Source of the DNA: Mesorhizobium sp.
GTDB lineage: Bacteria > Pseudomonadota > Alphaproteobacteria > Rhizobiales > Rhizobiaceae
Length of the DNA stretch: 64,000 nucleotides
Direction of reading: 5' to 3'
Assembly: GCF_017306585.1 (NCBI RefSeq)
Contig: NZ_JAFKIC010000106.1
Location: forward strand, 62,001-126,000
A program made the translations under genes and the position numbers. Position 1 is the first letter of the stretch. Each line of letters opens with the position of its first letter. Below the pieces are notes generated by a model that saw only the letters and a list, made by a program, of their open reading frames with translations, searched no databases and was not told the origin of the DNA. Of this stretch, positions 19,315 through 42,712 are shown in pieces.

Positions 19315-19316
19315 TG

Positions 19317-21432: not shown

Positions 21433-21458
21433 TTACTTACCGTCCGAACAGTATATAA
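21433..21458. promoter_or_regulatory. Operator-like palindrome, copy 1 (CoA-transferase operon)
   Basis: This 26-bp near-palindrome has left half TTACTTACCGTCC and right half GAACAGTATATAA on the + strand; 18 of 26 positions are self-complementary, with the pattern TTA-N2-TAC-N-GT-N-CG-N-AC-N-GTA-N2-TAA. It lies 138 nt upstream of the CoA-transferase start. The same sequence with one change occurs at 28290 and a diverged copy at 37500. Size and symmetry fit a TetR operator. Confidence 0.75.
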
Positions 21459-21463
21459 CTGAT

Positions 21464-21489
21464 AGCGGCATGTCAATCGCCATGCCGCT
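21464..21489. terminator. Perfect 9-bp hairpin between operator and ABC ATPase gene
   Basis: AGCGGCATG (21464-21472) pairs perfectly with CATGCCGCT (21481-21489) around an 8-nt loop. It lies in the 263-bp gap between two same-strand operons. No U-tract follows on either strand, so intrinsic termination is uncertain. Confidence 0.35.
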
Positions 21490-21558
21490 CAGAATTTAGT
21501 GTCTTGGAGGCTACACGATAGCGTTGTGGCGCACCGCACAACCGGAGCCGCGGACGGC

Positions 21559-22353
21559 CTAGGAGGAAGTGTGTAAGGTTTTGGAGATAAACTTTTTGAA
21601 GCGGTCCGGTGCAGCTTCAGAGAAGAGTTTTGCGGGCGGCGCGTCCGCGATGAGCGTACCCTTTTCCAGAAAAATGATGCGGTTCGAAACCTCCCGTGCG
21701 AAATTGATCTCGTGGGTGACAATGAGCATTGTTCGTCCCTCTTTAGCCAGATCTCGAATGACCTTCAGGACCTCCCCGACAAGCTCCGGGTCTAGCGCCG
21801 ATGTCGGCTCATCGAACAGGATGGCTGCTGGCCGCTGAGCAAGCGCCCTTGCAATCGCTGCGCGTTGCTGCTGCCCGCCCGATAGGTGTCTGGGGTAACT
21901 GTTGGCTTTGTCGGAAAGCCCCACCTTCGCCAACAGTGACATTGCTTCGTCCACACATTCCGTTTTTGAACGCTTCTGAACATGGACCGGCGCTTCAATG
22001 ACGTTTTCGAGGATCGACATGTGTGGCCATAGATTGAAGCCTTGGAACACCATCGCGACGTCTGACCGAATCCGGTCGAGCTGTTTTCGATCCGCGGGAC
22101 GGGTTCCATTCTTGGTCGTTCGCATGGCGATTTCCTCGCCCCGGATGGCGATTGTTCCCGCGCTCGGGGTTTCGAGCATGTTGATGCACCGGAGCATTGT
22201 GGACTTGCCAGAGCCCGACGATCCAAGGATCGAGACCACCTCTCCTTCATGTGCTTCGAACGTGATGCCCTTTAGCACCTCAAGATCGCCAAAGTTTTTA
22301 TGGAGGTCGCGAATGGAAATTACGGGAACGTTATTCGTCTCGATTGACGTCAT
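21559..22353 (-). CDS. Polar amino acid ABC transporter ATPase
   Basis: This 264-aa ABC ATPase has Walker A G-S-S-G-S-G-K-S-T, the Q-loop V-F-Q-G-F-N-L-W-P-H, signature L-S-G-G-Q-Q-Q-R, Walker B I-L-F-D-E-P-T-S-A-L-D and the His switch V-T-H-E. The W-P-H after the Q-loop and overall length are typical of the HisP/GlnQ/OccP polar amino acid group. It overlaps the upstream permease gene by 4 nt. It is the only amino acid ABC ATPase in the window, so it may also serve the permeases at 42761-44124, which have none nearby. Confidence 0.95.
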   Translation of the reverse strand: MTSIETNNVPVISIRDLHKNFGDLEVLKGITFEAHEGEVVSILGSSGSGKSTMLRCINMLETPSAGTIAIRGEEIAMRTTKNGTRPADRKQLDRIRSDVAMVFQGFNLWPHMSILENVIEAPVHVQKRSKTECVDEAMSLLAKVGLSDKANSYPRHLSGGQQQRAAIARALAQRPAAILFDEPTSALDPELVGEVLKVIRDLAKEGRTMLIVTHEINFAREVSNRIIFLEKGTLIADAPPAKLFSEAAPDRFKKFISKTLHTSS

Positions 22354-23072
22354 GGCCGCGCCTCAATGTTTGTTTTGACGGGGAGATCGCGCTGATGCGG
22401 TGACAGACGGTATTCAAGTAGAGCGATCAGGCGGGTTATTATGAAGTTGAGCGTCAGATAAATTGCACCAGCGACGATAAACACTTCGAAAGCGCGAAAT
22501 GTCTGGGAGATTAGCTCCGCAGCTATACCAGTTACTTCCATGATGGTGATGGTGGAAGCGAGGGAAGTTGCTTTTACCGCGAGAATGACTTCATTGCCGT
22601 AGGCTGGCAAAGCCTGCCGGAATGCGATCGGAAGGATGATGCGCCTGTACAGTAGAAAACCGGACATGCCGCAAGCCCTTGCCGCCTCAATCAATCCGGC
22701 CGAAACGGACTTTAGCCCTCCGCGGATGATCTCACTTCCATAGGCGCCGACGCTAAGCACTAGAGCAGTGATGGCGCACCAGTAAGGTTCACGGAAAAAC
22801 GGCCAGACACCCCAACTCTGGAGTTCGTGACGGAACTGTCCGAGGCCGTAGTAGATGATGAACATCTGCAGGAGGAGCGGCGAGCCGCGTATGCAAAAGA
22901 CGAAAAAGGCAACGCATTGGGAAGCGACGGGGACCCGCAGGTGCGCAACAATCGCCAGGGCTGTTGCCAGGACTGTCCCGACAAGTATCGCCGTTGCGGC
23001 CAATTCGAGCGTAATAGGCAAACCGGCAATGAGCCTGACGAAAGCCTGCCAGAGAAAACCGAAATCGATCAC
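22350..23072 (-). CDS. Polar amino acid ABC transporter permease (HisM/OccM-like)
   Basis: This 240-aa inner-membrane protein has about five hydrophobic segments and the EAA loop typical of the His/Glu/Gln/Arg/opine permease family (residues near G-L-I-E-A-A-R-A-C-G-M-S with I-I-L-P-I-A-F-R-Q-A-L-P following). It starts with ATG, 3 nt after the other permease, and overlaps the ATPase gene. Together with 23076-23783 it forms the transmembrane pore. Confidence 0.92.
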   Translation of the reverse strand: MIDFGFLWQAFVRLIAGLPITLELAATAILVGTVLATALAIVAHLRVPVASQCVAFFVFCIRGSPLLLQMFIIYYGLGQFRHELQSWGVWPFFREPYWCAITALVLSVGAYGSEIIRGGLKSVSAGLIEAARACGMSGFLLYRRIILPIAFRQALPAYGNEVILAVKATSLASTITIMEVTGIAAELISQTFRAFEVFIVAGAIYLTLNFIITRLIALLEYRLSPHQRDLPVKTNIEARP

Positions 23073-23075
23073 TGT

Positions 23076-23783: not shown

Positions 23784-24169
23784 GCAGCCAACCCACAGCT
23801 TGTCCAATACAATGCGCATTTTCAGAAATTACGGATGTGAAGGGCACAGTGGCGGCCTGATCGAATTGGGGATAGCCCAATTGTCGAACTACGAGACACC
23901 TGCACGGCCGCGCTCCCTCAGCCACGCTCCTCCAGCGGCATCACAGTTCGCACAAAATATTTTTATTGCAAGGAATCTTTTTTTTAGATACAAAGTTTTT
24001 GTTCGATTGAAGTTTGGACGCGTCGAGAAAGTGTGCCAGGTCAATCAGACAGTCCGTCGGACGACCGTATGTCGGCGTCGCCAGCCGCCGGCGGTCATCA
24101 CGGAATTGCATAAATATTTACATCCGTTAAAAGTTTTCAGCGCGTTGAAACTCAAAACGGTGTGAGGCC
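23784..24169. promoter_or_regulatory. Divergent intergenic region between ABC operon and TetR gene
   Basis: This 386-bp gap has no convincing gene. It holds an AT-rich stretch in its middle. Two related AT-rich words sit in opposite orientation: TTGCAATAAAAATATTT read on the minus strand at 23955-23971 and TTGCATAAATATTTA on the plus strand at 24106-24120. They may be regulator half-sites for the divergent promoters; this is only suggestive. Confidence 0.35.
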
Positions 24170-24820
24170 ATGATCAATCAAAAGTCTGGGGGGAGGCATG
24201 CAGGAATGGGCTTGCGGGAGCGCCAACGCCTAATAAGGCGGGAGAACATTCTCGCTGCGGCGAGTGATTTGTTCGCGGCACACAGCTTCAATGAGGTTAG
24301 TCTCGAAGCCGTCGCCGCGCGCGCTACCGTCTCCGTCCCCACCATCTACTCCTTTTTCAAATCGAAGCACGATCTGCTGCTAGGCTTGCTTGAGGAGGAC
24401 AGGCATATCCTTGAGCCGAATTTGGCGCGCGTTGTGGAGCGGCTGCCAAACGATCCTGTCCAGGCGATGGTGCTGATCGCCAAATCGGTCCTTTTGGATG
24501 GATATGATATTTCAAGAAAAGGCGTGTGGAGGGAGATCCTGGGGGCATCGATACACATGGGCCCTGAGCAGCGCAGCCAGTTCCGTGAGCTCCTCTCGAT
24601 TACTGCAAAACATGTGCGTGTCGCTTTGAACAAGCTTCGTGGGACAGGCTCGATCCATGATGATGTTGATCTGGATAGCGCAGCCCGCATTATCCATAGC
24701 GTCATACGGCACGTATTTGTCCTTTACATAACCAGTGAGGAAGCAACGGTCGATGATCTCACCGCCATGCTTGAAGAAGACCTGAAGACTGTCCTGTTTG
24801 GCATTGCGATAAGAGCTTAG
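24170..24820 (+). CDS. TetR/AcrR-family regulator (unrelated to the paralogous pair)
   Basis: This 216-aa protein has an N-terminal TetR domain: R-E-N-I-L-A-A-A-S-D-L-F near residue 25, then helix-turn-helix V-S-V-P-T-I-Y-S-F-F-K-S-K. The C-terminal ligand domain has no recognisable motif. Its recognition helix (V-S-V-P-T-I-Y-S-F-F) is unlike those of the TetR proteins at 19317 and 37741, so it probably binds other sites. It is divergent from the ABC transporter operon and upstream of two binding-protein genes, so it likely controls uptake. Confidence 0.9.
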   Translation: MINQKSGGRHAGMGLRERQRLIRRENILAAASDLFAAHSFNEVSLEAVAARATVSVPTIYSFFKSKHDLLLGLLEEDRHILEPNLARVVERLPNDPVQAMVLIAKSVLLDGYDISRKGVWREILGASIHMGPEQRSQFRELLSITAKHVRVALNKLRGTGSIHDDVDLDSAARIIHSVIRHVFVLYITSEEATVDDLTAMLEEDLKTVLFGIAIRA

Positions 24821-24972
24821 CCCCTACGCATCCGCAAATCATGGATATCAAGACCTTGGATGGGGTCCGTAAAGGTCTCACCAGGAGCGGTGCATCTGTG
24901 CGTTTTTTCTGACGCCCTGCATGGATGTACGTGAAGGCAACGCAACAACATTCACACTGAGGAGGACTATCG

Positions 24973-25818
24973 ATGAAAAAATTCTTGTCCAATCTACTTA
25001 TCGTAGGGGCCTTTGTACTCCCCACGATGCCGGCGCATGCCGGGGAGTGGAAGAAGATCGTGATCGGCATGGACGTCAGTTATGCTCCCTGGGCATATAC
25101 CGATGCCAACGGCAAATTCCTGGGATACGAAGTCGACCTCGCGAATGACCTCTGCAAACGCATGGAGGTCGAATGCGAACTCACATCGCAGCCTTGGGAT
25201 ACGATCATTCCCAGCCTGCAGGCCGGGAAGTTCGACGCCATCATCGCGGGAATGAACATCACGGAGGAGCGGCTGAAGGAGATCGATTTCTCTGTCTCTT
25301 ATGCGGCGAGCCCGCGCGCTTTCCTGACGACGAAGTCGAGCAAATTCGCAAATCTTCCGCTTGGCGAATCCATCCTTGATCTGGAAAAGGACGCCGATTC
25401 CGCGACCAAGCAGATCGACGCGGTCCGCTCCGAACTCCCTGGCTCGACGCTCGGCGTGCTGACCGCTTCCGCCAACACCCTCTTCGTCGAGAAGAACTTC
25501 GCCGACGTCGCGGAGATTCGGCAATACAAGACAGCCGAACAATACGTACTCGACCTCCAAGCCGGCCGCATTGATATCGCTTTCGATACACTGCCCTACC
25601 TGATGGGTGTTCTCAAGGGCGCGGATGGCGGCGATATGGTTGTCGTCGGGCCGAAGCTTGCGGGCGGCCTGCTAGGTGCTGGCGCCGGCGTTGGCCTTCG
25701 CAAGAGCGATGCGGATCTCAAAGCAATGTTCAACAAGGCTATTGAGGACGCGAAGAAGGACGGAACGATCAAGGCGCTCACCATCAAATGGTTCGGCGCG
25801 GATCTTTCGCCGACGTAA
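24973..25818 (+). CDS. Periplasmic amino acid-binding protein (ABC, family 3)
   Basis: This 281-aa protein has a Sec signal peptide (M-K-K-F-L-S-N-L-L-I-V-G, cleavage after A-H-A near residue 23) followed by a type-3 solute-binding fold with S-Y-A-P-W-A-Y near the N-terminus and G-Y-E-V-D-L-A-N-D-L. The latter pattern is the classic polar amino acid/opine-binding signature. A GGAGGA site precedes the ATG. It likely delivers substrate to the permeases at 22350-23783, transcribed the other way. Ligand is unknown; opine and basic amino acid binders share this shape. Confidence 0.93.
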   Translation: MKKFLSNLLIVGAFVLPTMPAHAGEWKKIVIGMDVSYAPWAYTDANGKFLGYEVDLANDLCKRMEVECELTSQPWDTIIPSLQAGKFDAIIAGMNITEERLKEIDFSVSYAASPRAFLTTKSSKFANLPLGESILDLEKDADSATKQIDAVRSELPGSTLGVLTASANTLFVEKNFADVAEIRQYKTAEQYVLDLQAGRIDIAFDTLPYLMGVLKGADGGDMVVVGPKLAGGLLGAGAGVGLRKSDADLKAMFNKAIEDAKKDGTIKALTIKWFGADLSPT

Positions 25819-25905
25819 ACTTGCAGAATATTCCTTCAGACCGCATGTCGTCTTTACATACCGACTAGTCGCTTAATAATTCAAACTCAATGGAGATGAT
25901 TCTTC

Positions 25906-26703
25906 ATGTATTTCAACTTAAACCGACGGGCATTTTTCGCAGTAACTGCGCTTTGCCTGACATCCCTGACCGCTCTGGAAGCCACGGCCGCAGCCGACGT
26001 CTTGCCGTCGACAATCGCCGGAAAGGGTGAACTTGCGATTGGTCTCGAGTCGACCTATCCCCCCTTTAATTTTCAGGATGAATCCGGCAATCTCGTCGGG
26101 TTCGAGGTCGATTTTGCTAACGATCTCTGCAAGAGGCTCGGACTGACGCCTAGATATGTGCCGACACAGTTTGACGGCATTCTCGCGGCTCTCGCGTCTG
26201 GTAGGCTCGACGTCGTGATCAATCAGATCACCATCACTCCGGAACGTCAGAAGAACTACGATTTCTCGGTTCCATACACGATCACCAAGATCCAGATGGT
26301 CACTCGGAAAGAACTCGCAGCCGAGCTGACGGCACCTGAAAAGCTTTCAGGGCGCGCCGTTGGCGCGGTGCTCGGCACGAACTTCGAGCAATGGGTTCGT
26401 GCCAACGTCCCTGACGCGGACGTCAAGACCTACGACCTCGACGCCACCATGTATCGCGATTTGAAGGCGGGCCGGATCGACGTGGCCCTCAACGACACGA
26501 TGGTCGCGGCGAGTCTGATCAAAAAAGCCGATTCGGGCTTCGTCACGGCGGGCGAACCGTTCGCCCCCCAAGAGCAGGCGGTCGCAATGCGAAAAGAACC
26601 GGCACTGAAAGCTGCCATCGACAAAGCCATCGAAGAAATGAAAGCCGACGGCACTTTGACGGCCATGTCGATCAAATGGCTCGGTGTCGATGTCTCGAAG
26701 TGA
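25906..26703 (+). CDS. Second periplasmic amino acid-binding protein
   Basis: This 265-aa protein has a signal peptide ending near A-T-A-A-A-D (about residue 30) and a family 3 binding domain with S-T-Y-P-P-F-N-F and G-F-E-V-D-F-A-N-D-L. It follows the first binding-protein gene by 87 nt. Two different binding proteins next to one permease set suggest uptake of two related ligands through one transporter. An intercistronic 10-bp hairpin follows at 26729. Confidence 0.93.
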   Translation: MYFNLNRRAFFAVTALCLTSLTALEATAAADVLPSTIAGKGELAIGLESTYPPFNFQDESGNLVGFEVDFANDLCKRLGLTPRYVPTQFDGILAALASGRLDVVINQITITPERQKNYDFSVPYTITKIQMVTRKELAAELTAPEKLSGRAVGAVLGTNFEQWVRANVPDADVKTYDLDATMYRDLKAGRIDVALNDTMVAASLIKKADSGFVTAGEPFAPQEQAVAMRKEPALKAAIDKAIEEMKADGTLTAMSIKWLGVDVSK

Positions 26704-26728
26704 GACTGTGCGTTCCTACCATCAAGCA

Positions 26729-26752
26729 GGAGAGCTGCGAATGCAGCTCTCC
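26729..26752 (+). other. Perfect 10-bp intercistronic hairpin after binding-protein gene
   Basis: GGAGAGCTGC (26729-26738) pairs with GCAGCTCTCC (26743-26752) around the 4-nt loop GAAT. No U-tract follows, so it is more likely an RNA-stabilising element than a terminator. It ends 13 nt before the aminotransferase ATG and could also limit its translation. A similar hairpin follows another binding-protein gene at 42713. Confidence 0.6.
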
Positions 26753-26765
26753 ACAAAGAAAGTGA

Positions 26766-28142
26766 ATGAAGATGACGATGATACCCAACTCCAATGAAGC
26801 GCGGGATATTGCGTACCACTTCCACGCCTATACTGACGCCCGGAAGCATGAAGCGACGACGCCGCTTATCATTGACCGGGCTGAGGGGGCTTACGTCTAC
26901 GACAGCAACGGGAAGCGCTACCTTGAAGGCATGGCCGGCCTTTGGAGCGTCGCCGTCGGCTTCGGCGAGCGGCGTCTCGTGCAAGCCGCTGCACGGCAGA
27001 TGGAACGCCTGAGCTTTGGCCACAATTTTACTAGCCGGACGCATATGCCGGCGATCGATCTTGCGGAAAAGCTAGTAGAGATCGCCCCGGTCCCGATGAG
27101 CAAGGTGTTCTTCACGAATTCCGGTTCCGAAGCCAATGATACCGCAATCAAGATGATCTGGTACAGGTCGAATGCGCTCGGCCAGTCCCAGCGGAAAAAG
27201 CTTATTGCCCGAGAACGCGCCTATCATGGTGTCACGCTGGCCTCGGGCAGCCTGACCGCTTTCTCCTACAATCACGAATCCTTCGACATGCCCATTGCCA
27301 ACGTCCTACGTACGGGCAGCCCCCATTTCTGGCGCGATGCGGAACCTGGTGAAAGCGAAGAGGATTTTGCATCCAGAAGGGCGAACGAACTGGAGAAGCT
27401 GATCCTCGATGAAGGTCCGGAGACAATCGCTGCCTTCTTCGGCGAGCCGGTCCTCGGCGCCGGAGGTGTTGTCGTTCCTCCGCGGACCTACTGGGAGAAG
27501 ATTCAGGCCGTTCTGCGGAAATACGATATACTGTTGGTCGCTGACGAGGTCGTGTGCGGCTTCGGCCGAACCGGTAACATGTTCGGTTCCCAGACGTACG
27601 ATATCAAACCGGACATTATGGTTCTCTCGAAGGCGCTCTCCTCGTCATACCTTCCGATTTCCGCTCTGCTCGTGAATGACAAGGTGTACCAACCGATTGC
27701 TGATGAGAGCCATCGCATAGGCACCTTCGGCCACGGCTTTACCGGCGGTGCGCATCCGGTTGCGGCGGCCGTGGCACTCGAAAACATCGCCGTCATCGAA
27801 GATCGCGACCTCGTCGGCAACGCATCACGCGTCGGTCAATACCTGCGTGACGGCCTGCAACGTTTCTCGGATCATCCGTTGGTGGGAGAGGTTCGTGGCG
27901 TTGGATTGGTCGCCGCCGTGGAACTGTTCAAGCAGAATTTCCCAAATGCAGCCGGCCTCAAGAACGGAGAACTGGGCGCCAAGGCAAATGCGTATCTCGC
28001 CGAGGAGGGCGTGCTTTTGCGCGCAGCCGTCGACGCGCTCACGATTTGCCCGCCTCTCACGATCACCGTGGGGGACGCAGACTTCTTAATCGAGAAGATC
28101 GGCAAGGTTCTCAATCGAGTTACAGCGGAACTCGCCGCATAG
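26766..28142 (+). CDS. Class III (omega-amino acid) aminotransferase
   Basis: This 458-aa PLP enzyme has G-M-A-G-L-W near residue 57, T-N-S-G-S-E-A-N-D-T in the phosphate-binding region, D-E-V-V-C-G-F-G-R-T-G, and the Schiff-base Lys in L-S-K-A-L-S-S-S-Y. Class III enzymes of this size transfer terminal (omega) amino groups to pyruvate or a similar acceptor, giving a semialdehyde. I use the first of three close Met codons (26766, 26772, 26778); the true start is uncertain by four residues. Position between amino acid binding proteins and a beta-oxidation operon suggests it converts an omega-amino acid to a semialdehyde later oxidised to a dicarboxylate; this is inference. Confidence 0.92.
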   Translation: MKMTMIPNSNEARDIAYHFHAYTDARKHEATTPLIIDRAEGAYVYDSNGKRYLEGMAGLWSVAVGFGERRLVQAAARQMERLSFGHNFTSRTHMPAIDLAEKLVEIAPVPMSKVFFTNSGSEANDTAIKMIWYRSNALGQSQRKKLIARERAYHGVTLASGSLTAFSYNHESFDMPIANVLRTGSPHFWRDAEPGESEEDFASRRANELEKLILDEGPETIAAFFGEPVLGAGGVVVPPRTYWEKIQAVLRKYDILLVADEVVCGFGRTGNMFGSQTYDIKPDIMVLSKALSSSYLPISALLVNDKVYQPIADESHRIGTFGHGFTGGAHPVAAAVALENIAVIEDRDLVGNASRVGQYLRDGLQRFSDHPLVGEVRGVGLVAAVELFKQNFPNAAGLKNGELGAKANAYLAEEGVLLRAAVDALTICPPLTITVGDADFLIEKIGKVLNRVTAELAA

Positions 28143-28179
28143 CGTACGCGAAATACGGATGGCAGACCACGACAGCGTA

Positions 28180-28208
28180 GCGGACCGGAGTTTCATGCCC
28201 CGGTCCGC
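28180..28208 (+). terminator. GC-rich hairpin after the aminotransferase gene
   Basis: GCGGACCGG (28180-28188) pairs with CCGGTCCGC (28200-28208), a 9-bp stem with an 11-nt loop, 38 nt after the aminotransferase stop. No T-run follows, so termination would be inefficient or Rho-assisted. It separates this operon from the next promoter region. Confidence 0.4.
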
Positions 28209-28289
28209 ATTCGCAGCGATGCTGACGGGACTGATGATCCAACGGCTCGAATTCATTCGGTATTTTTCGAATCGGGTCTCCTGGCTTAT

Positions 28290-28315
28290 TTACTTACCGT
28301 CCAAACAGTATATAA
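28290..28315. promoter_or_regulatory. Operator-like palindrome, copy 2 (beta-oxidation operon)
   Basis: Left half TTACTTACCGTCC and right half AAACAGTATATAA differ from copy 1 (21433) by one base out of 26. It ends 45 nt before the acyl-CoA dehydrogenase ATG. The TATATAA at its right end could be part of a -10 element, which would make binding repressive. Such identity over 26 bp at two intergenic sites 6.9 kb apart is unlikely by chance. Confidence 0.8.
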
Positions 28316-28360
28316 ATGCTTTAAATGCCATTGGTGGCGCAAGCAAACAGGTGAGACTAC

Positions 28361-29512
28361 ATGGCTCTCGATTCAGACACGATGAATGAACTGGTGAATA
28401 CGGTCGGGCGTTTCGTTAGAGAGCGTCTTCGTCCTCTCGAGGAACAGGTCGCCGATAACGATGCTATCCCGGTCGAAATCCGCCAGGAGATCGCGAATTT
28501 AGGTCTATTCGGCCTGACGATTCCCGAAGAGTACGGTGGCCTTGGTCTCAATATGGAGGAAGAAGTCCGGATCGCACTGGAGCTGGGCAAGACCTCTCCC
28601 GCCTTCCGCTCGCTTATCGGGACCAATAACGGTATCGGCTCGCTCGGCCTCATTCTCGACGGCACGGAAGAGCAGAAGCAGCGGTATTTGCCTCGCCTTG
28701 CCACCGGCGAACTCATCAGCTCATTCGCGCTGACCGAGCCGGAAGCTGGCTCGGATGCTGCGTCGGTACGAACCACTGCAAAGCACACTGAGAACGGCTA
28801 TGTGATAAATGGCACGAAACGCTTCATCACAAACGCCCCTCACGCCGGTCTTTTCACCGTTTTCGCACGCACTGACGCCTCGAAGCCCGGCGCCCAAGGT
28901 GTCTCGGCGTTTCTGGTCGAAGCAGGAACGCCCGGCCTTTCGCTCGGCCCCATCGACCGCAAGATGGGTCAGAAGGGCTCTCATACGTCGGATGTGATTT
29001 TGGAGGATTGCCTGGTCCCGTTCGACGCGCTTCTCGGCGGCGTTGAGAACCAGGGCTTCCGTACAGCCATGAAGACGTTGGATCGCGGTCGCCTGCACAT
29101 CTCGTCGATCTGTGTTGCAATGGCCGAACGCTTGATCGAGGACAGTTTGCGCTATGCAATGGACCGCAAGCAGTTCGGACAACCGATCGCCGAATTCCAG
29201 CTCATCCAGGCGATGCTCGCCGATAGTCGCACGGAAGCCTACGCCGCACGTTGCATGGTGCTGGAAACTGCACGGCGCCGTGATGCAGGCCAGGACGTGA
29301 CGACCGATGCCGCGTGCTGCAAGATGTTCGCAAGCGAGATGGTCGGTCGAGTCGCCGACCGCGCCGTGCAGATTCATGGCGGAGCCGGCTATATGGCCGA
29401 ATACGGCATCGAACGGTTCTATCGCGATGCTCGGCTGTTCCGCATCTACGAGGGCACCACGCAGATCCAGCAGATTGTGATCGCCAAGAACATGATCAAG
29501 GCCGCCTCGTAA
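28361..29512 (+). CDS. Acyl-CoA dehydrogenase
   Basis: This 383-aa flavoenzyme has the acyl-CoA dehydrogenase signatures: A-L-T-E-P-E-A-G-S-D near residue 125, Q-I-H-G-G-A-G-Y near residue 340, and the catalytic Glu in R-I-Y-E-G-T-T-Q-I-Q. It makes a trans-2-enoyl-CoA and reduces ETF. The Y-E-G-T-T-Q-I-Q ending is the general acyl-CoA dehydrogenase type, not the glutaryl-CoA dehydrogenase type. It is first gene in its operon behind operator copy 2, and the cluster's own EtfAB and ETF-QO can take the electrons. Confidence 0.95.
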   Translation: MALDSDTMNELVNTVGRFVRERLRPLEEQVADNDAIPVEIRQEIANLGLFGLTIPEEYGGLGLNMEEEVRIALELGKTSPAFRSLIGTNNGIGSLGLILDGTEEQKQRYLPRLATGELISSFALTEPEAGSDAASVRTTAKHTENGYVINGTKRFITNAPHAGLFTVFARTDASKPGAQGVSAFLVEAGTPGLSLGPIDRKMGQKGSHTSDVILEDCLVPFDALLGGVENQGFRTAMKTLDRGRLHISSICVAMAERLIEDSLRYAMDRKQFGQPIAEFQLIQAMLADSRTEAYAARCMVLETARRRDAGQDVTTDAACCKMFASEMVGRVADRAVQIHGGAGYMAEYGIERFYRDARLFRIYEGTTQIQQIVIAKNMIKAAS

Positions 29513-29610
29513 GCGTCCCCTCACTCAGCCTTCGTTCTTCGGCGGGCTTGCAAGCACGGCGTCGGAGGGAGGCTGGACCGACGGCTCGAACAATCCTTAC
29601 GGAGCCCGCT

Positions 29611-31635
29611 ATGACTACAGAGACCCCCTCGCCCCTCGTTCAGAAATTTGGCTCAGGTCTTACCACCACCGAAATCGTTGATGGTGTCGGCCTGGTTTCG
29701 ATCGACAATCCGCCTGTCAATGCGCTCTCGCGCGATCTCCGCGAAGCTATGATCGACGCCATCAACCATCTCGCTGCGAAACACGACGTTCAGTCGATCG
29801 TCCTTCTTGGAAAAAACGGTACGTTCATCGCCGGAGCCGACCTAAAGGAGTTCGGCAAACCCCTGACCGATCCCACATTGCCGGATGTCATTGAAACCAT
29901 CGAGCAGTGCTCGAAGCCAGTCATCGCGGCAATCGAAGGGGCGGCACTCGGCGGTGGCTACGAAATCGCCCTCGGTTGCGACGCGCGGATCGCGACGGAA
30001 AAGGCTGCCGTCGGACTGCCGGAAGGAACCTTCGGAATAATTCCAGGTGCCGGGGGCACCGTCCGACTGCCTCGGGTGACTGATGCCGTCACCGCACTCG
30101 ACATGATCGCGTCTTGCCGTCAAGTCAAAGCTCCAGAAGCCAAGAACCTCGGCCTCATCGACGCTATTGTTGGGAAAATTCCAGACGATGCGATTGCCTA
30201 TGCTCGTGCCTTCGGGACCACGAAGATCAGATTAAGGGACAGAGAACCAAAGCCCTTCGATCACAAGGCGTTTGACCTTGCCGTCCAGCAGGTCTTGAAA
30301 CGCGGTCGCGGGCGACCCTTCGTCTTCGACCAGACCGAAGCAATCTGGCAGGCAGTCACGGTTCCCTTCGATGACGCGCTCGCGTCAGCCCGCACCGCAT
30401 TTCGGCGCCTCCGCGATTCCGATGAGTCGGCGGCCCTGCGGCATCTTTTCTTTGCGGAAAGGCAGGCCGCGCGTGTCGAGGGCCTCGCGGACGCTTCGCC
30501 CTTGTCGATCGAGACAGTCGGTATCGTCGGAGCCGGAACCATGGGCGCGGGGATCGCCGCCGCTTTTCTCGCCGCAGGTTATCCGGTGAAGCTCACGGAC
30601 CTCAAACAAGAGGCCCTAGCAAGCGCACGGACCCGCATCGAAGGTTTTCTCGCGAAAGCTTCGAACCCCGCCGAGCTGACATTGGTCCATGATCTCGAAG
30701 ATCTTTCAGAGTGCGATCTGCTCATCGAAGCTGCCTTCGAGGATCTGGCCGTGAAGACTGAGCTCATGGCTCGTTTCGACAGTTTCGCCAAGACCAATGC
30801 GATCCTTGCGACCAACACTTCCTATCTCGATGTGAATGTCATAGCCGCCGCGACCACGCGTCCTCAATCCGTCGTTGGACTGCATTTCTTTGCGCCGGCG
30901 CACATCATGAAGCTTCTGGAGATTGTTCGGGGCGAAGAAACATCACCGGAAGTCCTGCAGGCCGCTTTTGCGATCGCAAGACGGCTTCGGAAAGTCGCCG
31001 TCGTTTCCGGAGTCGGAGAAGGCTTCATCGGCAACCGCATCTACAATGCTTACCGCGCACAGAGCGAAGCGATGCTGATCGATGGCGCAAGCCCGGACGA
31101 AATTGATACCGCCCTTGAGGCGCTCGGTTTTGCCATGGGGCCGTTCAGCGTGTCGGACCTGTCAGGGCTCGATATAGCTTGGGCTAACCGGAAGAGGAAG
31201 CAGGAGGCCCGCGGGGACAAGGATGGTGACGTTCCGGTCCTCGAATGGCTTGTTGAAGCCGGCCGGCTCGGCCGCAAGACAGGTGCCGGCTGGTATCGGT
31301 ATGACGATGGCCAACGCGCATCGGACCCAGACGTGAGAAATCTCATCGCGAAGGCGCGGGCACATTATGGCGCTGCGCCGAGGTCGCTGGACCGGGACGA
31401 AATCCAGGAGCGCACGCTTTGCGCGATCGTCAACGAGGCCCTGCTCGTTCTGGAAGACGGCATCGCTTCGCGTGCCTCAGATATCGATCTGGTGATGATC
31501 AACGGATATGGCTTTCCGAAACATCTTGGTGGACCACTCTTCTGGGCGAAGCGTCAACCACGTTACCGCCTTGAACGTACTCTTGCGACCGTAGTCGGCG
31601 GCGGCCGCCGCGGGAACCTCGCATTGCTCGATTGA
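29611..31635 (+). CDS. Fused enoyl-CoA hydratase / 3-hydroxyacyl-CoA dehydrogenase
   Basis: This 674-aa FadB/FadJ-like bifunctional enzyme has an N-terminal crotonase domain (oxyanion-hole region I-A-G-A-D-L-K-E-F and G-A-A-L-G-G-G-Y-E, residues about 70-120) and a C-terminal NAD-dependent 3-hydroxyacyl-CoA dehydrogenase (G-I-V-G-A-G-T-M-G near residue 305 and the H-F-F-A-P region near residue 430). The ATG at 29611 follows a GGAG; frames before it run into the dehydrogenase gene and are not coding. It hydrates the enoyl-CoA and oxidises the alcohol, giving 3-oxoacyl-CoA. Length is shorter than E. coli FadB (about 730 aa), as for many FadJ-like proteins. Confidence 0.94.
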   Translation: MTTETPSPLVQKFGSGLTTTEIVDGVGLVSIDNPPVNALSRDLREAMIDAINHLAAKHDVQSIVLLGKNGTFIAGADLKEFGKPLTDPTLPDVIETIEQCSKPVIAAIEGAALGGGYEIALGCDARIATEKAAVGLPEGTFGIIPGAGGTVRLPRVTDAVTALDMIASCRQVKAPEAKNLGLIDAIVGKIPDDAIAYARAFGTTKIRLRDREPKPFDHKAFDLAVQQVLKRGRGRPFVFDQTEAIWQAVTVPFDDALASARTAFRRLRDSDESAALRHLFFAERQAARVEGLADASPLSIETVGIVGAGTMGAGIAAAFLAAGYPVKLTDLKQEALASARTRIEGFLAKASNPAELTLVHDLEDLSECDLLIEAAFEDLAVKTELMARFDSFAKTNAILATNTSYLDVNVIAAATTRPQSVVGLHFFAPAHIMKLLEIVRGEETSPEVLQAAFAIARRLRKVAVVSGVGEGFIGNRIYNAYRAQSEAMLIDGASPDEIDTALEALGFAMGPFSVSDLSGLDIAWANRKRKQEARGDKDGDVPVLEWLVEAGRLGRKTGAGWYRYDDGQRASDPDVRNLIAKARAHYGAAPRSLDRDEIQERTLCAIVNEALLVLEDGIASRASDIDLVMINGYGFPKHLGGPLFWAKRQPRYRLERTLATVVGGGRRGNLALLD

Positions 31636-31663
31636 ACCAACCCATACTTTTTGGAGGAATCCG

Positions 31664-32866
31664 ATGTCCCCAGCCTATATCTGCGCCTATATCCGCACGC
31701 CGATCGGCCGCTTCGGTGGCTCGCTCTCATCCGTGCGGGCTGACGATCTCGGCGCTATCCCCTTGAAGGCAATCATGGCGCAAAATCCCAACCTCGACTT
31801 CGAAGCCATCGATGAAGTGGTGTTCGGGTGCGCCAACCAGGCAGGCGAGGATAACCGGAACGTTGCACGCATGTCGTCCTTGCTCGCGGGCATGCCTGTG
31901 AGCGTTCCCGGAACAACCATCAATCGCCTGTGCGGCTCCGGCATGGATGCCACAATCACCGGTGCGCGCGCTATCGCTTCCGGTGAAGCTGACCTGGTGA
32001 TCGCCGGCGGCGTCGAAAGCATGAGCCGTGCTCCCTTTATCGTTCCAAAAGCCGAGACGGCTTTCTCTCGTTCGATGGAGATTCACGACACAACGATTGG
32101 CTGGCGCTTCATCAACCCACTCATGAAAAAGCAGTACGGCGTCGACTCGATGCCGGAAACCGCCGAGAACGTGGCGGATGACTTCAAGATCAGCCGCGAG
32201 GACCAGGATGCTTTCGCGGTGCGTTCGCAAGCGAAAGCAGCACAGGCCCAGACAAATGGCCGCTTCGCTAAAGAGATCACCCCGGTCACGATCCCGCAAA
32301 AGAAGGGCGACGCACTAATCGTCGACACGGACGAACATCCCCGCGCGACAACCATCGATGCTCTCGGCAAGCTCCGACCGATTGTCCGCGCCGACGGCAC
32401 TGTGACCGCAGGCAATGCGTCAGGCGTGAATGACGGAGCGGCGGCAATCCTTCTGGCTTCCGAAGCCGCCGTCAAGAAATTCGGACTGACTCCGATCGCA
32501 CGCGTTCTGGGTGGCGCGACCGCAGGTGTAGCACCGAGGATCATGGGATTTGGCCCTGCGCCGGCGACCAAAAAGCTGATGTCCCGCCTTGGAATGCGCC
32601 AGGAGCAGTTCGATGTCATTGAGCTCAACGAAGCGTTCGCATCTCAAGGGCTTGCGACGTTGCGTGACCTTGGCATCGTCGACGACGATCCTCGCGTGAA
32701 TCCAAATGGGGGTGCCATCGCCTTAGGACATCCATTGGGTATGTCGGGCGCACGGATCACGGGCACGGCGGCGCTGGAGCTGGCGAACACCGGCGGCAAA
32801 TTCGCCCTCGCGACCATGTGCATCGGCGTTGGTCAGGGCATCGCGATCGCCCTCGCGTCAGTATAA
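31664..32866 (+). CDS. Acetyl-CoA C-acyltransferase (PcaF-like thiolase)
   Basis: This 400-aa thiolase has the nucleophilic Cys in N-R-L-C-G-S-G-M-D, the His in G-G-A-I-A-L-G-H-P-L-G-M-S-G-A-R and the second Cys in M-C-I-G-V-G-Q-G. The first 40 residues and length resemble the beta-ketoadipyl-CoA thiolase (PcaF) group. It would cleave 3-oxoacyl-CoA to acetyl-CoA plus a shorter acyl-CoA; with a dicarboxylyl substrate, succinyl-CoA. A TTTGGAGGAAT ribosome site precedes it. The dicarboxylate preference is inference from resemblance only. It is the last gene of the operon and a bidirectional terminator follows. Confidence 0.93.
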   Translation: MSPAYICAYIRTPIGRFGGSLSSVRADDLGAIPLKAIMAQNPNLDFEAIDEVVFGCANQAGEDNRNVARMSSLLAGMPVSVPGTTINRLCGSGMDATITGARAIASGEADLVIAGGVESMSRAPFIVPKAETAFSRSMEIHDTTIGWRFINPLMKKQYGVDSMPETAENVADDFKISREDQDAFAVRSQAKAAQAQTNGRFAKEITPVTIPQKKGDALIVDTDEHPRATTIDALGKLRPIVRADGTVTAGNASGVNDGAAAILLASEAAVKKFGLTPIARVLGGATAGVAPRIMGFGPAPATKKLMSRLGMRQEQFDVIELNEAFASQGLATLRDLGIVDDDPRVNPNGGAIALGHPLGMSGARITGTAALELANTGGKFALATMCIGVGQGIAIALASV

Positions 32867-32954
32867 GCATTGAAGGCTGGGCGGCGTCTCGTCGCCCATT
32901 CCCGAATTCCAGCTTGTTGTTCGTCACCTGAATGAACGTTGGCGTGCAGAACAG

Positions 32955-32987
32955 AAAAGCCGCAACCTGGTCGGGCTGCGGCTTTTT
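32955..32987. terminator. Bidirectional intrinsic terminator
   Basis: AAAAGCCGCA (32955-32964) pairs with TGCGGCTTTT (32977-32986) around a 12-nt loop, and both strands give a T-run after the stem. It sits between convergent genes (thiolase on + and the GltB-like gene on -), so it can end both transcripts. Confidence 0.85.
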
Positions 32988-33012
32988 CCTTAACCATCAC
33001 TTTCAGATTGCT

Positions 33013-34683
33013 TTACGCCATGGCCCGCAGGTCAGGCTTACGCTTTCGACGCGAGGCAAAAGGCCCAAAGGGGATCTCCGGCGGCGCGAAGGTCTCCGCG
33101 CTCGCCCGGTCCCAGCGATCGTACCAATCCGCCAACTCCGGAATTTCCTCCTCCGACAGCAGAAACCCTTCGGGCAAATATGGATACGCCTCATTGCCAT
33201 CAAGGAATTCGTTGTCCGACTGGCGGAACATGAAGTGGTACGGCATGAAGTCGCGAGGATCGGTCAGGCCTGCGGCGCCGGCAATCTCGCTCAAGGCGCG
33301 CATCGTATTGCGATGGAAACGCGCGACACGGTCGCTCTTATCACCTACATCAATAGCACGCTGACGGGCCTGATCTTGCGTGGCGATCCCAACCGGGCAC
33401 TTGTTCGTATGGCATGCCTGAGCCTGGATACAGCCTACGGCAAACATAAAGCCCCGGCCGGAATTACACCAGTCTGCACCAAGAGCAAGTGCGCGGGCGA
33501 TATCGAACGCGGAAATGATCTTCCCCGCTGCGCCGAGCCTGATATCGTTGCGAATGCCCGCGCCACGAAGCGCGTTATGAACGAAGGTCAGGCCCTCAAG
33601 CATCGGCATGCCGACCCGATTGGCGAATTCCACCGGAGCGGCTCCTGTTCCTCCTTCCGCACCGTCAATCACGATGAAATCCGGTTTGATTCCGGTTTTC
33701 ACCATAGCCTTCACCATGCCGAGAAACTCACGGCGATGACCGATACAGAGCTTGAAGCCTACCGGCTTACCGCCAGATAGTTCGCGCAATCTGGCGACAA
33801 ATTCCATCAGACCGACAGGCGTGGAGAACGTGCTGTGTGCTGGCGGTGAGATGCAGTCTACACCCATGGGAATGCCCCGCGCCTCGGCAATTTCAGGCGA
33901 GATTTTCGACGCCGGAAGCATACCGCCGTGACCAGGCTTCGCGCCTTGGCTTAGCTTGACCTCGATCATCTTTATCTGAGGGTCGGCAGTGATTGCAGCA
34001 AACTTCTCCTCTGAGAAGCTTCCATCGTCTCCCCGACACCCGAAATAGCCGGAGGCGACCTGATAAATTAGGTCGCCACCACCTTCGCGGTGGTAGCGGC
34101 TGATCCCCCCTTCCCCGGTGTCATGGGCGAAGCCGCCCTTCTTGGCTCCCCGGTTCAGAGCTGAAATCGCGTTGCCGGAAAGGGCACCGAAGCTCATTGC
34201 GGAAATATTATAGAGGCTGGCATCATAGGGCTGGCGACAACTGCTCCCACCGATACTCACCCGGAAATCGAAGTCGGTGATATGTGTTGGCGTGGCAGAG
34301 TGGGTAAGCCACGAATAGCCGGCGCCATAAACATTTTCGATCGTCCCAAACGGCCTTTTGTCCTCGACACCTTTTGCGCGTTGATAGACCAGCCCTCGCG
34401 CCTGCCGGCTGAACGGAACCTCCTCGTGATCAGCCTCGATCATATACTGTCGGATTTCCGGACGGATGCTTTCCATGAGAAAGCGGATATGGCCGATCAC
34501 CGGATAGTTCCGAAGAATAGCATGCCTTCTTTGCTTGATGTCGTAAACGCCAATCAGCGCGAGCGGAACAAGAACCACGGCAGGGACTGCCCACCAAGGG
34601 CTCGAAAGCGCGAGGCCCATGACCGAGAGGAGTGAACCCAAGAGAATTACGAGGAAGATGGCGTACCGCTGGTACAGGATCAT
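33013..34683 (-). CDS. FMN-binding glutamate synthase family protein, membrane-anchored
   Basis: This 556-aa protein has two N-terminal hydrophobic segments (about residues 5-27 and 30-48), then the GltB-type FMN (alpha/beta barrel) domain with I-S-A-M-S-F-G-A-L-S and K-L-S-Q-G-A-K-P-G-H-G-G. It also has the Cys-x5-Cys-x4-Cys iron-sulfur motif in C-I-Q-A-Q-A-C-H-T-N-K-C. It lacks the amidotransferase domain of true GltB, so ammonia would not come from glutamine here. Family members are often found next to amine-catabolism genes; the exact reaction is not known to me. It lies downstream of the class IV aminotransferase but after its terminator, so may be separately transcribed. Confidence 0.85.
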   Translation of the reverse strand: MILYQRYAIFLVILLGSLLSVMGLALSSPWWAVPAVVLVPLALIGVYDIKQRRHAILRNYPVIGHIRFLMESIRPEIRQYMIEADHEEVPFSRQARGLVYQRAKGVEDKRPFGTIENVYGAGYSWLTHSATPTHITDFDFRVSIGGSSCRQPYDASLYNISAMSFGALSGNAISALNRGAKKGGFAHDTGEGGISRYHREGGGDLIYQVASGYFGCRGDDGSFSEEKFAAITADPQIKMIEVKLSQGAKPGHGGMLPASKISPEIAEARGIPMGVDCISPPAHSTFSTPVGLMEFVARLRELSGGKPVGFKLCIGHRREFLGMVKAMVKTGIKPDFIVIDGAEGGTGAAPVEFANRVGMPMLEGLTFVHNALRGAGIRNDIRLGAAGKIISAFDIARALALGADWCNSGRGFMFAVGCIQAQACHTNKCPVGIATQDQARQRAIDVGDKSDRVARFHRNTMRALSEIAGAAGLTDPRDFMPYHFMFRQSDNEFLDGNEAYPYLPEGFLLSEEEIPELADWYDRWDRASAETFAPPEIPFGPFASRRKRKPDLRAMA

Positions 34684-34755
34684 AATTCCATTCCCTATTC
34701 TTCGTCGACGAGCGGGGCACGCGGTCGGAAGATTGCGATGAAGTACAGGTCGGTG

Positions 34756-34781
34756 AAAAATGAGGAGCGGCTATGCCGCTC
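34756..34781 (-). terminator. Intrinsic terminator of the etfB-etfA-aminotransferase operon
   Basis: On the minus strand GAGCGGC-ATA-GCCGCTC (34781-34765) is a 7-bp stem with 3-nt loop, and CATTTTTCA follows a few bases later. The stem overlaps the stop codon of the class IV aminotransferase, so termination occurs right at the end of the gene. Confidence 0.7.
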
Positions 34782-35646
34782 TTTCCGCGATGTTTATGCC
34801 GGTGGCGAGGCGATCTTCGATGTAGAGCTTGCGTAGCTTTGCAGTCGCCGGACCGGGTTTGCCAAGTCCAACCGGATGACCATCGATCGAAACAACAGGC
34901 ATAACGAAGCTGATGGAGTCGGTGATGAACGCTTCTTCCGCATTCTTGGCTTCTTCGAGCGTGACCGCAGCCTGACGTGTTTCAAGCCCCGCTCGTGCCC
35001 CGAGATCCAGAACCGACGCGCGAGTAATGCCATGCAGTAGGGCGTTTGAGAGGTCCCGCGTAATCAGAATGCCATCCTTGGTGATGATGTGGAAATTCGC
35101 TGAACCTGACTCCGTTATGAGGCCATCCTCCACGAAAAGCACATCATCATAGCCTTCGCGCAACGCCTCCATCTTGGCCATTGACGAGTAGAGAAGCTGT
35201 ACCGTTTTGATCTGCCGGTGAGCCCATCGCCCATCAGGTGCTGTCTTCATTGTGATGCCACGTTCCCAGCCAGGGTTAGCCAGGATGGTGCGCGGCTGCG
35301 TGAACATCACGATCGTCGGACGGAGGCCATCGGTGTAGATAAAATTGCGGTCTTCCGCGCCACGGGAAATCTGCAAATAGACTAAGCCATGCGTAATGCC
35401 ATTCCGGCGCGCGATCTCCTGGTGCAAAGCCAAGAGTTCACCTTCCGCGACCGGCATCGGAATTCCGAGCGTTTCGAGCGAGCGTTTCAGTCGATCGGTG
35501 TGGCCCTTGAAATCGATCAACTTGCCGTCAGCAACGGCAGTTACCTCATATATCGCATCCGCAAAAAGAAATCCGCGATCGAAGATCGAGATCGTTGCTG
35601 CCGTCTCGTCCAGCCATTGGCCGTTGACGAACACTGTCCTGCCCAT
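34771..35646 (-). CDS. Class IV aminotransferase (D-amino acid aminotransferase-like)
   Basis: This 291-aa fold-type IV PLP enzyme has F-D-R-G-F-L-F-A-D-A-I-Y-E near residue 25 and K-T-V-Q-L-L-Y as the Schiff-base Lys region (about residue 142), with E-S-G-S-A-N-F-H near residue 175. Those patterns fit D-amino acid aminotransferase better than branched-chain enzymes. The ATG at 35646 has an AGGA 9 nt upstream; another Met six codons earlier (35664) is possible. It is third in the etfB-etfA operon, 49 nt after etfA, an unusual pairing. A role for D-amino acids is consistent with the HcnABC-like enzyme and racemase-like gene elsewhere in the window. Confidence 0.85.
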   Translation of the reverse strand: MGRTVFVNGQWLDETAATISIFDRGFLFADAIYEVTAVADGKLIDFKGHTDRLKRSLETLGIPMPVAEGELLALHQEIARRNGITHGLVYLQISRGAEDRNFIYTDGLRPTIVMFTQPRTILANPGWERGITMKTAPDGRWAHRQIKTVQLLYSSMAKMEALREGYDDVLFVEDGLITESGSANFHIITKDGILITRDLSNALLHGITRASVLDLGARAGLETRQAAVTLEEAKNAEEAFITDSISFVMPVVSIDGHPVGLGKPGPATAKLRKLYIEDRLATGINIAERAA

Positions 35647-35695
35647 TGTGCGCGTTCCTGTCATTTCGTTGGAAAAAATTGTGGGGCAGTCGCGG

Positions 35696-36631
35696 TTAGC
35701 CAATTGCCTTTTGCAGCTCCGGTAGGACCTCAAAGAGATCCCCGACAAGGCCGTAGTCCGCTACTTGGAAGATCGGCGCCTCCTCGTCCTTGTTGATCGC
35801 GACGATCACCTTCGAGTCCTTCATGCCGGCAAGGTGCTGGATCGCGCCGGAAATACCGCAAGCGATGTAGAGCTGCGGAGCGACGACCTTGCCCGTCTGG
35901 CCGACCTGCCAGTCGTTCGGTGCGTAGCCGGCATCGACGGCCGCGCGTGACGCGCCGACGGCCGCGCCGAGCTTGTCGGCGACGGGCAGGATCACTTCCT
36001 GGAACTTCTCCGACGAGCCCAGCGCACGGCCGCCCGAGATGATGATCTTGGCCGAGGTTAGCTCCGGACGGTCCGAGGTCGACAAGTCGGCAGAAACGAA
36101 AGCCGATAGATCAGAAGAAAAGGCTGCCGTCGAGAGTTCCTCGACGGCAGCAGGTGCGCCTTGGGAGGCAGGAGAAAAGGATGAAGAGCGGACAGTGATC
36201 ACTTTCTTCGCATCGGTGGCCTGCACCGTCTGGATGGCGTTGCCCGCATAGATCGGACGCTTGAACGTGTCGGGGCTCACCACCTCGACGATCTCCGACA
36301 CCTGCGCCACGTCGAGCAGCGCCGCCACGCGCGGCAGCACGTTCTTGCCGACCGAGGTGGCCGCGCCGAGGATGGTGTCGTAGGACCCGGCGAGCGACAC
36401 GATCAGCGCCGCCAGCGGCTCGGCCAGATTGTTGGCAAGGCTTGCATCCTCGGCAACCAGCACCTTGGAAACGCCGGCAAGCTTGGCCGCCTGCTCAGCC
36501 GCCGCCTTGGCGCCCGCGCCTGCGACAAGCACATGCACGTCGGAACCGATCTTGGAGGCCGCCGTCAGCGCCTTGGCGGTCTGGTCGGAAAGGTGGGCGT
36601 TGTCGTGGTCTGCCAGAAGAAGAATGGCCAT
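35696..36631 (-). CDS. etfA: Electron transfer flavoprotein alpha subunit
   Basis: This 311-aa ETF alpha subunit has the C-terminal FAD domain with [35 protein letters not shown] and N-K-D-E-E-A-P-I-F, all the usual FAD contacts. It accepts electrons from the acyl-CoA dehydrogenase and passes them to ETF-QO. It follows etfB by 27 nt. Confidence 0.96.
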
Positions 36632-36658
36632 TATCGTAATCTCCTCAAATCTCGCCGA

Positions 36659-37408
36659 TCAAAGCACGCCGGCTTCGGTCTTGAGCTTCTCGACCAGCTC
36701 GGCGACCGTCTTGACCTTGACGCCCGCCTTGCGGCCCGACGGCTCCTCGGTCTTCAGCACCTTCAGCCGCGGCTCCGTCGACACGCCGAAGTTTGCGGGC
36801 GACGTCTTGTCGAGCGGCTTCTTCTTGGCCTTCATGATGTTGGGCAGCGAGGCATAGCGCGGCTCGTTCAGGCGCAGGTCCGACGTGACGACGGCCGGAA
36901 GCTTGACCTCGATCGTCTGCAGGCCGCCATCGACTTCGCGCGTGACCTTGGCCGAACCGTCACCGATCTCGATCTTCGAGGCGAAGGTGGCCTGCGCCGT
37001 GCCGAGCAAGGCCGCCAGCATCTGGCCGGTTTGGTTGGAATCGTCGTCGATCGCCTGCTTGCCGACGATGATGAGGCCCGGCTGCTCGGCGTCGGCCACA
37101 CCCTTGAGGATCTTGGCGACGGCCAGCGGCTCGACTTGATCGTCGGTCTCGACCAGGATGGCGCGATCGGCCCCCATGGCCAGCGCCGTCCTCAGCGTCT
37201 CTTCGGCCTTGGCAGGTCCGATCGACACGACGACCACTTCCTCGGCCTTGCCCGCTTCCTTCAGGCGCAGAGCCTCCTCGACCGAAATCTCGTCGAACGG
37301 GTTCATCGACATCTTCACATTGGCAAGCTCGACACCCGAGCCGTCCGCCTTCACGCGAATCTTCACGTTGTAATCAACGACCCGCTTGACTGGGACCAAG
37401 ATTTTCAT
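36659..37408 (-). CDS. etfB: Electron transfer flavoprotein beta subunit
   Basis: This 249-aa ETF beta subunit starts [14 protein letters not shown] at 37408; 14 further upstream codons are open but lack homology. It has the V[22 protein letters not shown] region and G-K-Q-A-I-D-D-D (AMP-binding). It is first gene of the etfB-etfA-aminotransferase operon and lies behind operator copy 3 (37500). A plasmid-borne ETF with its own regulator suggests pathway-specific use. Confidence 0.96.
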
Positions 37409-37499
37409 AGCAGCCTTGCCTTCCATATAAGGACGCAGCACCGCACCCAACGCGGGCGTGATAACGGCCTACGCTCTACTCCGTGACAGATGCGAATAC

Positions 37500-37525
37500 T
37501 TATATTCCGTTCCGTCGGTAAGTAA
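37500..37525. promoter_or_regulatory. Operator-like palindrome, copy 3 (etf operon / TetR copy 2)
   Basis: Read on the + strand, TTATATTCCGTTC and CGTCGGTAAGTAA match the reverse complement of copy 1 at 22 of 26 positions. It lies 91 nt upstream of etfB and 215 nt upstream of the divergent TetR start, so it could serve both. The rest of this 332-bp gap holds no gene. Confidence 0.7.
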
Positions 37526-42705: not shown

Positions 42706-42712
42706 CAATACG

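Follow-up and report, generated by a model that had tools for sequence, protein, structure and literature searches.

A 26-bp palindrome as the probable shared operator of two PfmR-like TetR regulators in an acyl-CoA catabolic cluster of Mesorhizobium sp.

Described TetR systems and the palindromes of the window

Control of acyl-coenzyme A (acyl-CoA) catabolism by TetR proteins is an already known kind of regulon. According to an excerpt of PMC7022988, PfmR recognizes a 16-bp pseudopalindrome with the consensus TACCGACCGNTNGGTN, and the targets listed there include the operon of pfmR itself, which holds acyl-CoA dehydrogenases, and a beta-ketoadipyl-CoA thiolase. FadP of Burkholderiales is described, in an excerpt of PMC12543098, as a TetR repressor of several beta-oxidation operons (12 operons in Ralstonia solanacearum) whose knockout improved growth on adipate. 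Further TetR families of fatty-acid or steroid catabolism are Bacillus FadR (NF053878) and KstR2. Here we analyze a 64,000-nucleotide stretch of Mesorhizobium sp. DNA (contig NZ_JAFKIC010000106.1, positions 62,001 to 126,000; hereafter the window), which is part of a plasmid-like contig that also encodes a relaxase, a RepC-type protein and type IV secretion functions, and in which a 26-bp palindrome recurs before genes for a CoA-transferase (caiB), an acyl-CoA dehydrogenase (acd) and an electron-transfer flavoprotein (etfBA) and beside genes for two TetR proteins, TetR1 and TetR2. A literature search at title level found no description of this cluster, which is no proof that none exists.

Among solved structures, the nearest for both regulators is PDB 3vpr (E 2.1e-43 and 8.1e-44), which we take to be PfmR. 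Both proteins are also about 44% identical to the TetR of the Thermus thermophilus HB8 plasmid pTT27, identified from the order of the genes around it as TTHB023/PfmR. Like the window proteins, PfmR is plasmid-encoded, and its gene on pTT27 adjoins acyl-CoA dehydrogenase genes. The core of operator 1, TACCGTCCGAACAGTA, resembles the PfmR consensus in part: length and symmetry are the same, and by hand 10 of the 13 fixed positions agree in operators 1 and 3, but the letters otherwise differ. Unlike the window TetRs, PfmR has no GRP N-terminal arm when its annotated start is used; two core matches stand upstream of Thermus pfmR without the outer TTA and TAA flanks, and the window, in contrast to the PfmR system, combines one 26-bp operator class with two TetRs. 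FadP is comparable to the window proteins in its described role. The families of Bacillus FadR and KstR2 give weak full-length matches; TetR1 and TetR2, at 46.0 and 46.9 bits, stay far below the FadR cut-off of 200 and are not members of that family. What is less ordinary here is the combination of two repressors of apparently separate origin with one operator code. The operators of the window are the following.

21433-21458, no strand assigned: operator 1, TTACTTACCGTCCGAACAGTATATAA, 137 bp upstream of the caiB start
28290-28315, plus strand: operator 2, TTACTTACCGTCCAAACAGTATATAA, 46 bp upstream of acd
37500-37525, minus strand: operator 3, TTATATTCCGTTCCGTCGGTAAGTAA (read on the minus strand, TTACTTACCGACGGAACGGAATATAA), between the divergent etfB (minus, 91 bp downstream) and tetR2 (plus, 213 bp downstream)
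25854-25879, no strand assigned: operator 4, a weaker site, TTACATACCGACTAGTCGCTTAATAA, 27 bp upstream of a solute-binding protein gene

The first three had been pointed out by the first-pass annotation, and direct reading places them exactly there, with 0, 1 and 3 mismatches, respectively, to the symmetric pattern TTANNTACNGTNCGNACNGTANNTAA. The third copy had been described as reversed and 22/26 identical, and a hand count of reversed operator 3 against operator 1 gives the same figure; the gene contexts likewise agree with the CoA-transferase operon, acyl-CoA dehydrogenase operon and etfBA named there. The pattern TTANNTACNGTNCGNACNGTANNTAA has three matches in the window and none in any of 100 dinucleotide shuffles. 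In the whole genome of the strain (7,086,805 bases in 385 contigs), a closely similar pattern allowed up to three mismatches finds operators 1-3 only, its control finding nothing; the random scatter of many copies that the annotation had named as speaking against a regulon is excluded. Chance origin of the palindromes is hence excluded, both in the window and in the whole genome.

The count of three was probably too low. With a matrix made from operators 1-3, operator 4 scores 24.7 bits, compared to 35-41 bits for the three themselves and 10.6 bits for the next best place in the window, and it has two mismatches to a looser 26-bp pattern, so that the total is probably four. An identical site exists in Nitratireductor (L004), but as the surrounding DNA is about 99% identical, this carries little weight. 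The looser pattern itself, at up to three mismatches, is not specific in the strain's genome (5 and 7 matches on the two strands, where the control gives 25 and 15), and the places it marks, besides the four operators of the window, on contigs C218, C52 and C343 were not accepted as sites, since their flanks do not fit.

Linkage of palindrome and regulator across genomes

Bacterial genomes were scanned with an alignment of eight TetRs, which yielded 80 loci (L024-L103; 1.32 Mb), and these were searched with the matrix built from operators 1-3 of the window only, a match being at least 15 bits. The matrix gave 56 matches and its reversed version one. Of the 52 loci with relatives of either TetR (L024-L075), 47 carry a match, which in 45 lies no more than 1.5 kb upstream of tetR, compared to a single one of the 28 loci with remoter TetRs (L076-L103). 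Near-copies of the window make up 8 of the 52, and 40 of the other 44 still have a match. In loci L024-L074, where the real matrix finds 54 matches, column-permuted matrices found none or one in 19 of 20 trials and nine in the remaining trial.

Because the three-site matrix favors the TTA/TAA flanks, a second scan used just the 16-bp core and excluded nine near-copies (L004, L024-L028, L041-L043). A core match lies within 350 bp before tetR, acd, caiB or etfB in 35 of the 48 loci. Both flanks accompany 30 of these 47 gene-adjacent matches (31 distinct 26-mers) and one flank a further 12, compared to 2 and 5, respectively, among 101 core matches elsewhere. In a sample of 297 genomes of the order, the 26-mer with at most one mismatch is present in two, the window's own (three places) and G304 (just upstream of tetR). 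TetR homologs at E 1e-40 or better occur in four of these genomes, and the site is found in two of the four and in none of the other 293. Eight further genomes, chosen because the locus already held a site, contain a similar pattern once each, within 1.4 kb of the TetR homolog, with the control pattern in 2 of the 8; seven have one TetR homolog at E 1e-25 or better, and one has two.

Given the conservation of the sequence, its confinement to this region and its linkage to the regulators across genomes, all of which were computed directly, we consider it very likely that the palindromes are the operators of the two PfmR-like TetRs encoded in the cluster; the cluster is probably controlled as one regulon. 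The single regulon over CoA activation, oxidation, cleavage and electron transfer envisaged by the first-pass annotation thus gains support from a palindrome class confined to the region and from the same palindrome beside relatives of both TetRs in other bacteria.

Several observations nevertheless weigh against this reading. Five of the 52 related loci (L029, L043, L066, L071, L072) have no matrix match, and in L061 and L065 the match lies at least 6.9 kb from tetR. In the flank-blind scan, 13 of the 48 relatives lack a core match near the genes, and since these include two Neorhizobium loci (L007, L029) whose TetRs are 55-56% identical to TetR2, the conservation is incomplete. Two genomes of the same genus encode a 44% identical TetR homolog and have no site at up to one mismatch, whereas G304, whose homolog is hardly closer at 46%, does have one. 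The control pattern is present, by count of rows, in 17 of the 297 genomes, so that a lone one-mismatch match proves little, and the site of G304 counts for its position beside tetR. In the strain's own genome the 16-bp core alone, at up to two mismatches, gave fewer matches than its control (770 forward against 3402) and was dropped as a genome-wide search. Most of the site conservation in Nitratireductor is uninformative because most of the aligned DNA is about 99% identical; this plasmid was mostly discounted as footprint evidence, and its weight comes mainly from two additional sites beyond the alignment (L004:10000 and 12533) and from the more divergent part around operator 3.

Taken together, palindrome and TetRs appear to form a regulator-operator pair that is well supported for a TetR subfamily found in Alpha- and Betaproteobacteria, and the 26-bp operator can be searched for in other genomes. 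Plasmid genes for transport, CoA transfer, beta-oxidation and electron transfer would then belong to a single regulon, a link that may be of use in finding the substrate. The system would also offer a natural case of two repressors of separate lineages probably sharing operators after lateral transfer.

The two regulators, their promoters and the gene cluster

TetR1 and TetR2 are 53% identical, and both belong to the TetR_C_24 group, scoring 63.7 and 54.7 bits, respectively, for TetR_N (cut-off 24) and 63.1 and 74.5 bits for TetR_C_24 (cut-off 26.4). A third TetR of the window (24170-24820) was dropped as a candidate, as it has no TetR_C_24 match and is a TetR of another kind. In the tree, TetR2 groups with proteins of Shinella (73% identity) and Ochrobactrum plasmids (support 100/99) and TetR1 with those of Bosea, Microvirga and Chelatococcus (100/100), so that the two are not each other's nearest relatives, the deep forks being weak; judged by their sequences, both are PfmR-like proteins of separate lineages. 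A GRP motif precedes the helix-turn-helix in 57 of 59 TetR rows, the exceptions being the Thermus protein and L062; start codons in this comparison, that of L062 included, were set by a script rule.

Each lineage has the palindrome elsewhere without the other protein, and for this reason both TetRs probably bind the same sites in the window. The TetRs of the TetR1 clade, on contigs taken as chromosomal, adjoin caiB and/or a divergent acyl-CoA dehydrogenase gene; the genomes of Bosea, Chelatococcus and Microvirga have a single homolog, of the TetR1 type, and a site beside acd and the divergent caiB or tetR. The Shinella and Ochrobactrum plasmid records, the only part of these genomes searched, encode one TetR, the TetR2 ortholog, and hold four matrix matches each, at ABC (ATP-binding cassette) transporter genes, caiB (a like site 92 bp upstream of the caiB match), acd and etfB/tetR; the equivalents of operator 3 are L005:17769 in Shinella and L006:19768 in Ochrobactrum.

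It is conceivable, though rather unlikely, that only one protein, most probably TetR2, controls the sites and that TetR1 has another operator or is a passenger. Four matches with a single TetR2 ortholog in each of these two plasmid records, the part searched, would agree with this, as would the stronger divergence of TetR1 from its Nitratireductor counterpart (83% identity; 43 codon differences change the amino acid and 95 are silent) compared to TetR2 (97%, 7 against 44; the corresponding counts for etfA are unreliable because of indels). However, the TetR1 relatives of Bosea, Chelatococcus and Microvirga have the palindrome in their own neighborhood in genomes with no other homolog at E 1e-25, and the presumed recognition helices of the two window proteins are almost identical (VTKAAIYHYF and VSKAAVYHYF).

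The placement of the sites bears on how the two TetRs might act. Hexamers resembling -35 and -10 elements, TTTACT-16 bp-TATAAA, were read by eye across operator 2; a sigma-70-like promoter scan of three intergenic regions gave no match at the threshold of the tool. The TATA side of the site faces acd in 16 of 21 adjacent rows (7 distinct sequences), and in these 16 the site lies 40-60 bp before the gene or the tblastn match. An operator placed over the acd promoter would fit repression. On the other side of the balance are two of the 21 rows oriented the wrong way, three ties, and caiB, where the TATA-like side faces away from the gene; because the orientation of operator 1 does not fit, the caiB promoter may be placed otherwise.

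That orientation, together with the distance of operator 1 from caiB, would also suit TetRs that act as activators, or sites of dual function with repression at acd and etf and another role at caiB, and the weaker NCBIfam matches include FasR (about 41 bits against a cut-off of 330), which bears the name of an activator. We regard this as quite improbable, since the sites at acd and etfB cover the presumed -35/-10 region close before the start codons, which fits repression, and since in pfmR-deficient Thermus four of the listed target genes were up (adjusted p about 0.02; excerpt of PMC7022988).

The genes concerned are given below. The minus-strand genes listed after tetR1 make up the rest of the presumed caiB-tetR1 operon and were named from Pfam/NCBIfam; caiB, both tetR genes, acd, the fused enzyme, etfB, the solute-binding protein gene and the class III aminotransferase gene were named from Pfam, and etfA and the two genes after it from Pfam/NCBIfam.

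20078-21295, minus strand: caiB, CoA-transferase family III; best NCBIfam model succinate-glutarate CoA-transferase, below its cut-off
19317-20072, minus strand: tetR1 (TetR_N and TetR_C_24), second gene of the caiB operon; GRPP N-terminal arm
18079-19356, minus strand: class I/II aminotransferase
16493-18061, minus strand: thiamine pyrophosphate (TPP) enzyme
14982-16559, minus strand: aldehyde dehydrogenase
13658-14977, minus strand: sarcosine-oxidase-like beta
10404-13364, minus strand: sarcosine-oxidase-like alpha
9878-10423, minus strand: sarcosine-oxidase-like gamma
8688-9917, minus strand: cystathionine beta-lyase-like enzyme
7027-8691, minus strand: electron-transfer flavoprotein-quinone oxidoreductase
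6150-7217, minus strand: short-chain dehydrogenase
25906-26703, plus strand: solute-binding protein of an amino-acid ABC system, downstream of operator 4
26766-28142, plus strand: class III aminotransferase, after the solute-binding protein gene
28361-29512, plus strand: acd, acyl-CoA dehydrogenase
29611-31635, plus strand: fused enoyl-CoA hydratase/3-hydroxyacyl-CoA dehydrogenase; start from the Nitratireductor (L004) annotation
31664-32866, plus strand: pcaF, thiolase of the 3-oxoadipyl-CoA type; NCBIfam, 689.5 bits against a curated cut-off of 597
36659-37408, minus strand: etfB; start by homology with L004
35696-36631, minus strand: etfA
34771-35748, minus strand: class IV (D-amino-acid type) aminotransferase, after etfA
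33013-34683, minus strand: glutamate-synthase-like, after etfA on the same strand
37738-38358, plus strand: tetR2 (TetR_N and TetR_C_24), divergent from etfB; GRPP N-terminal arm

The operon limits are those that we infer from the shared strand and close spacing; on this basis, the caiB-tetR1 operon may extend down to about 6150, and the regulon, judged from gene order, may span about 32 kb.

In the mechanism we propose, with the palindromes as operators of the two PfmR-like repressors, a TetR dimer, or a pair of dimers, would occupy the 26-bp site. Occupied sites would block the caiB-tetR1 operon, the acd operon, etfBA/tetR2 and probably the binding-protein gene, the site overlapping the likely -35/-10 region of the acd promoter and of the etfB promoter. 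The repressors would probably be released by a CoA thioester that arises in the pathway. Uptake and CoA activation would then be turned on together with beta-oxidation to 3-oxoadipyl-CoA, thiolysis and electron transfer. Judged from the type of the thiolase, 3-oxoadipyl-CoA seems to be the end point of the acyl-CoA route, as it would be from adipyl-CoA; a C6-dicarboxylate (adipyl-CoA-like) route is our guess from the pcaF-type enzyme, and caprolactam/6-aminohexanoate, diaminopimelate and N-methylated amino acids were also considered.

Spread of the cluster and number of operators

DNA 99.8-100% identical to the window, in blocks of 2.2 to 17.6 kb, is present in Mesorhizobium comanense, Sulfitobacter delicatus, Sphingomonas sp. 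Ant H11 and Sphingobium cyanobacteriorum, and the cluster has therefore, by sequence identity, moved recently among orders, unless the assemblies are contaminated. The near-identical blocks include window 27738-45341 and come from loci L024, L025, L026, L028, L041, L042 and L043. It is very improbable that the palindromes have no regulatory role and were left by the copying of a mobile or repeated element. In favor of this, the window holds transposase genes, the cluster is mosaic, and operators 1 and 2 share 25 of 26 letters, even at places that the motif leaves free. However, the sequence surrounding these two differs, and the pattern recurs at corresponding gene positions in several bacterial families while being absent from 295 of the 297 genomes of the order.

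Counted with the matrix, operators number four in the window, six in the Nitratireductor stretch, four each in the Shinella and Ochrobactrum stretches, and one in most fetched loci of other genomes. One-mismatch patterns give three in the strain's own genome, two in the Shinella record, one in that of Ochrobactrum and one in each of the eight further genomes; the contrast in operator number thus depends on the weaker sites and is smaller by these patterns. Bosea has one site between divergent acd and caiB, and Shinella has two in the same gap; in the window, caiB and acd lie 7 kb apart, each with its own site, and transporter and aminotransferase genes stand between them. These layouts suggest operator duplication and separation, in a presumed order of events that we can offer only tentatively. 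An ancestral switch with one operator, of the kind seen in Bosea and Microvirga, where a single palindrome adjoins divergent acd and caiB/tetR, may have multiplied to four to six operators on mobile catabolic plasmids, in the window under two repressors of separate ancestry sharing a code. The GRPP N-terminal arm is AT-hook-like, and as part of the same tentative history we propose, from the contrast with the single Thermus protein, that it reads the TTA/TAA flanks in the minor groove, by which a 16-bp operator of the PfmR type would have been lengthened to 26 bp.

Several minor features of these loci may be recorded. The extra operators of Nitratireductor L004, which the window lacks, lie at 10000-10025, before a unit of flavin adenine dinucleotide (FAD) oxidoreductase, TPP enzyme and aldehyde dehydrogenase genes, and at 12533-12558, near a cystine-type ABC transporter. 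Identity to L004 falls from about 99% to 76-95% at window 18501-20000, 30501-32500 and 36001-38500, stretches that cover tetR1/aminotransferase, hydratase-fusion/thiolase and etfBA/tetR2, as if alleles had been exchanged by recombination. Window 17088-18679, within the TPP enzyme and aminotransferase genes, is missing from L043, and window 24247-26657, over binding-protein genes, from L041 and L042, each by insertion, deletion or an assembly effect. The match of the aldehyde dehydrogenase gene at 44140-45243, a gene shortly before transposase genes, leaves the last 100 or so positions of the family profile uncovered. In Pigmentiphaga and relatives (L048, L049, L050, around 9955-9984), the TetR gene is preceded by two palindromes that overlap with an offset of 4 bp.

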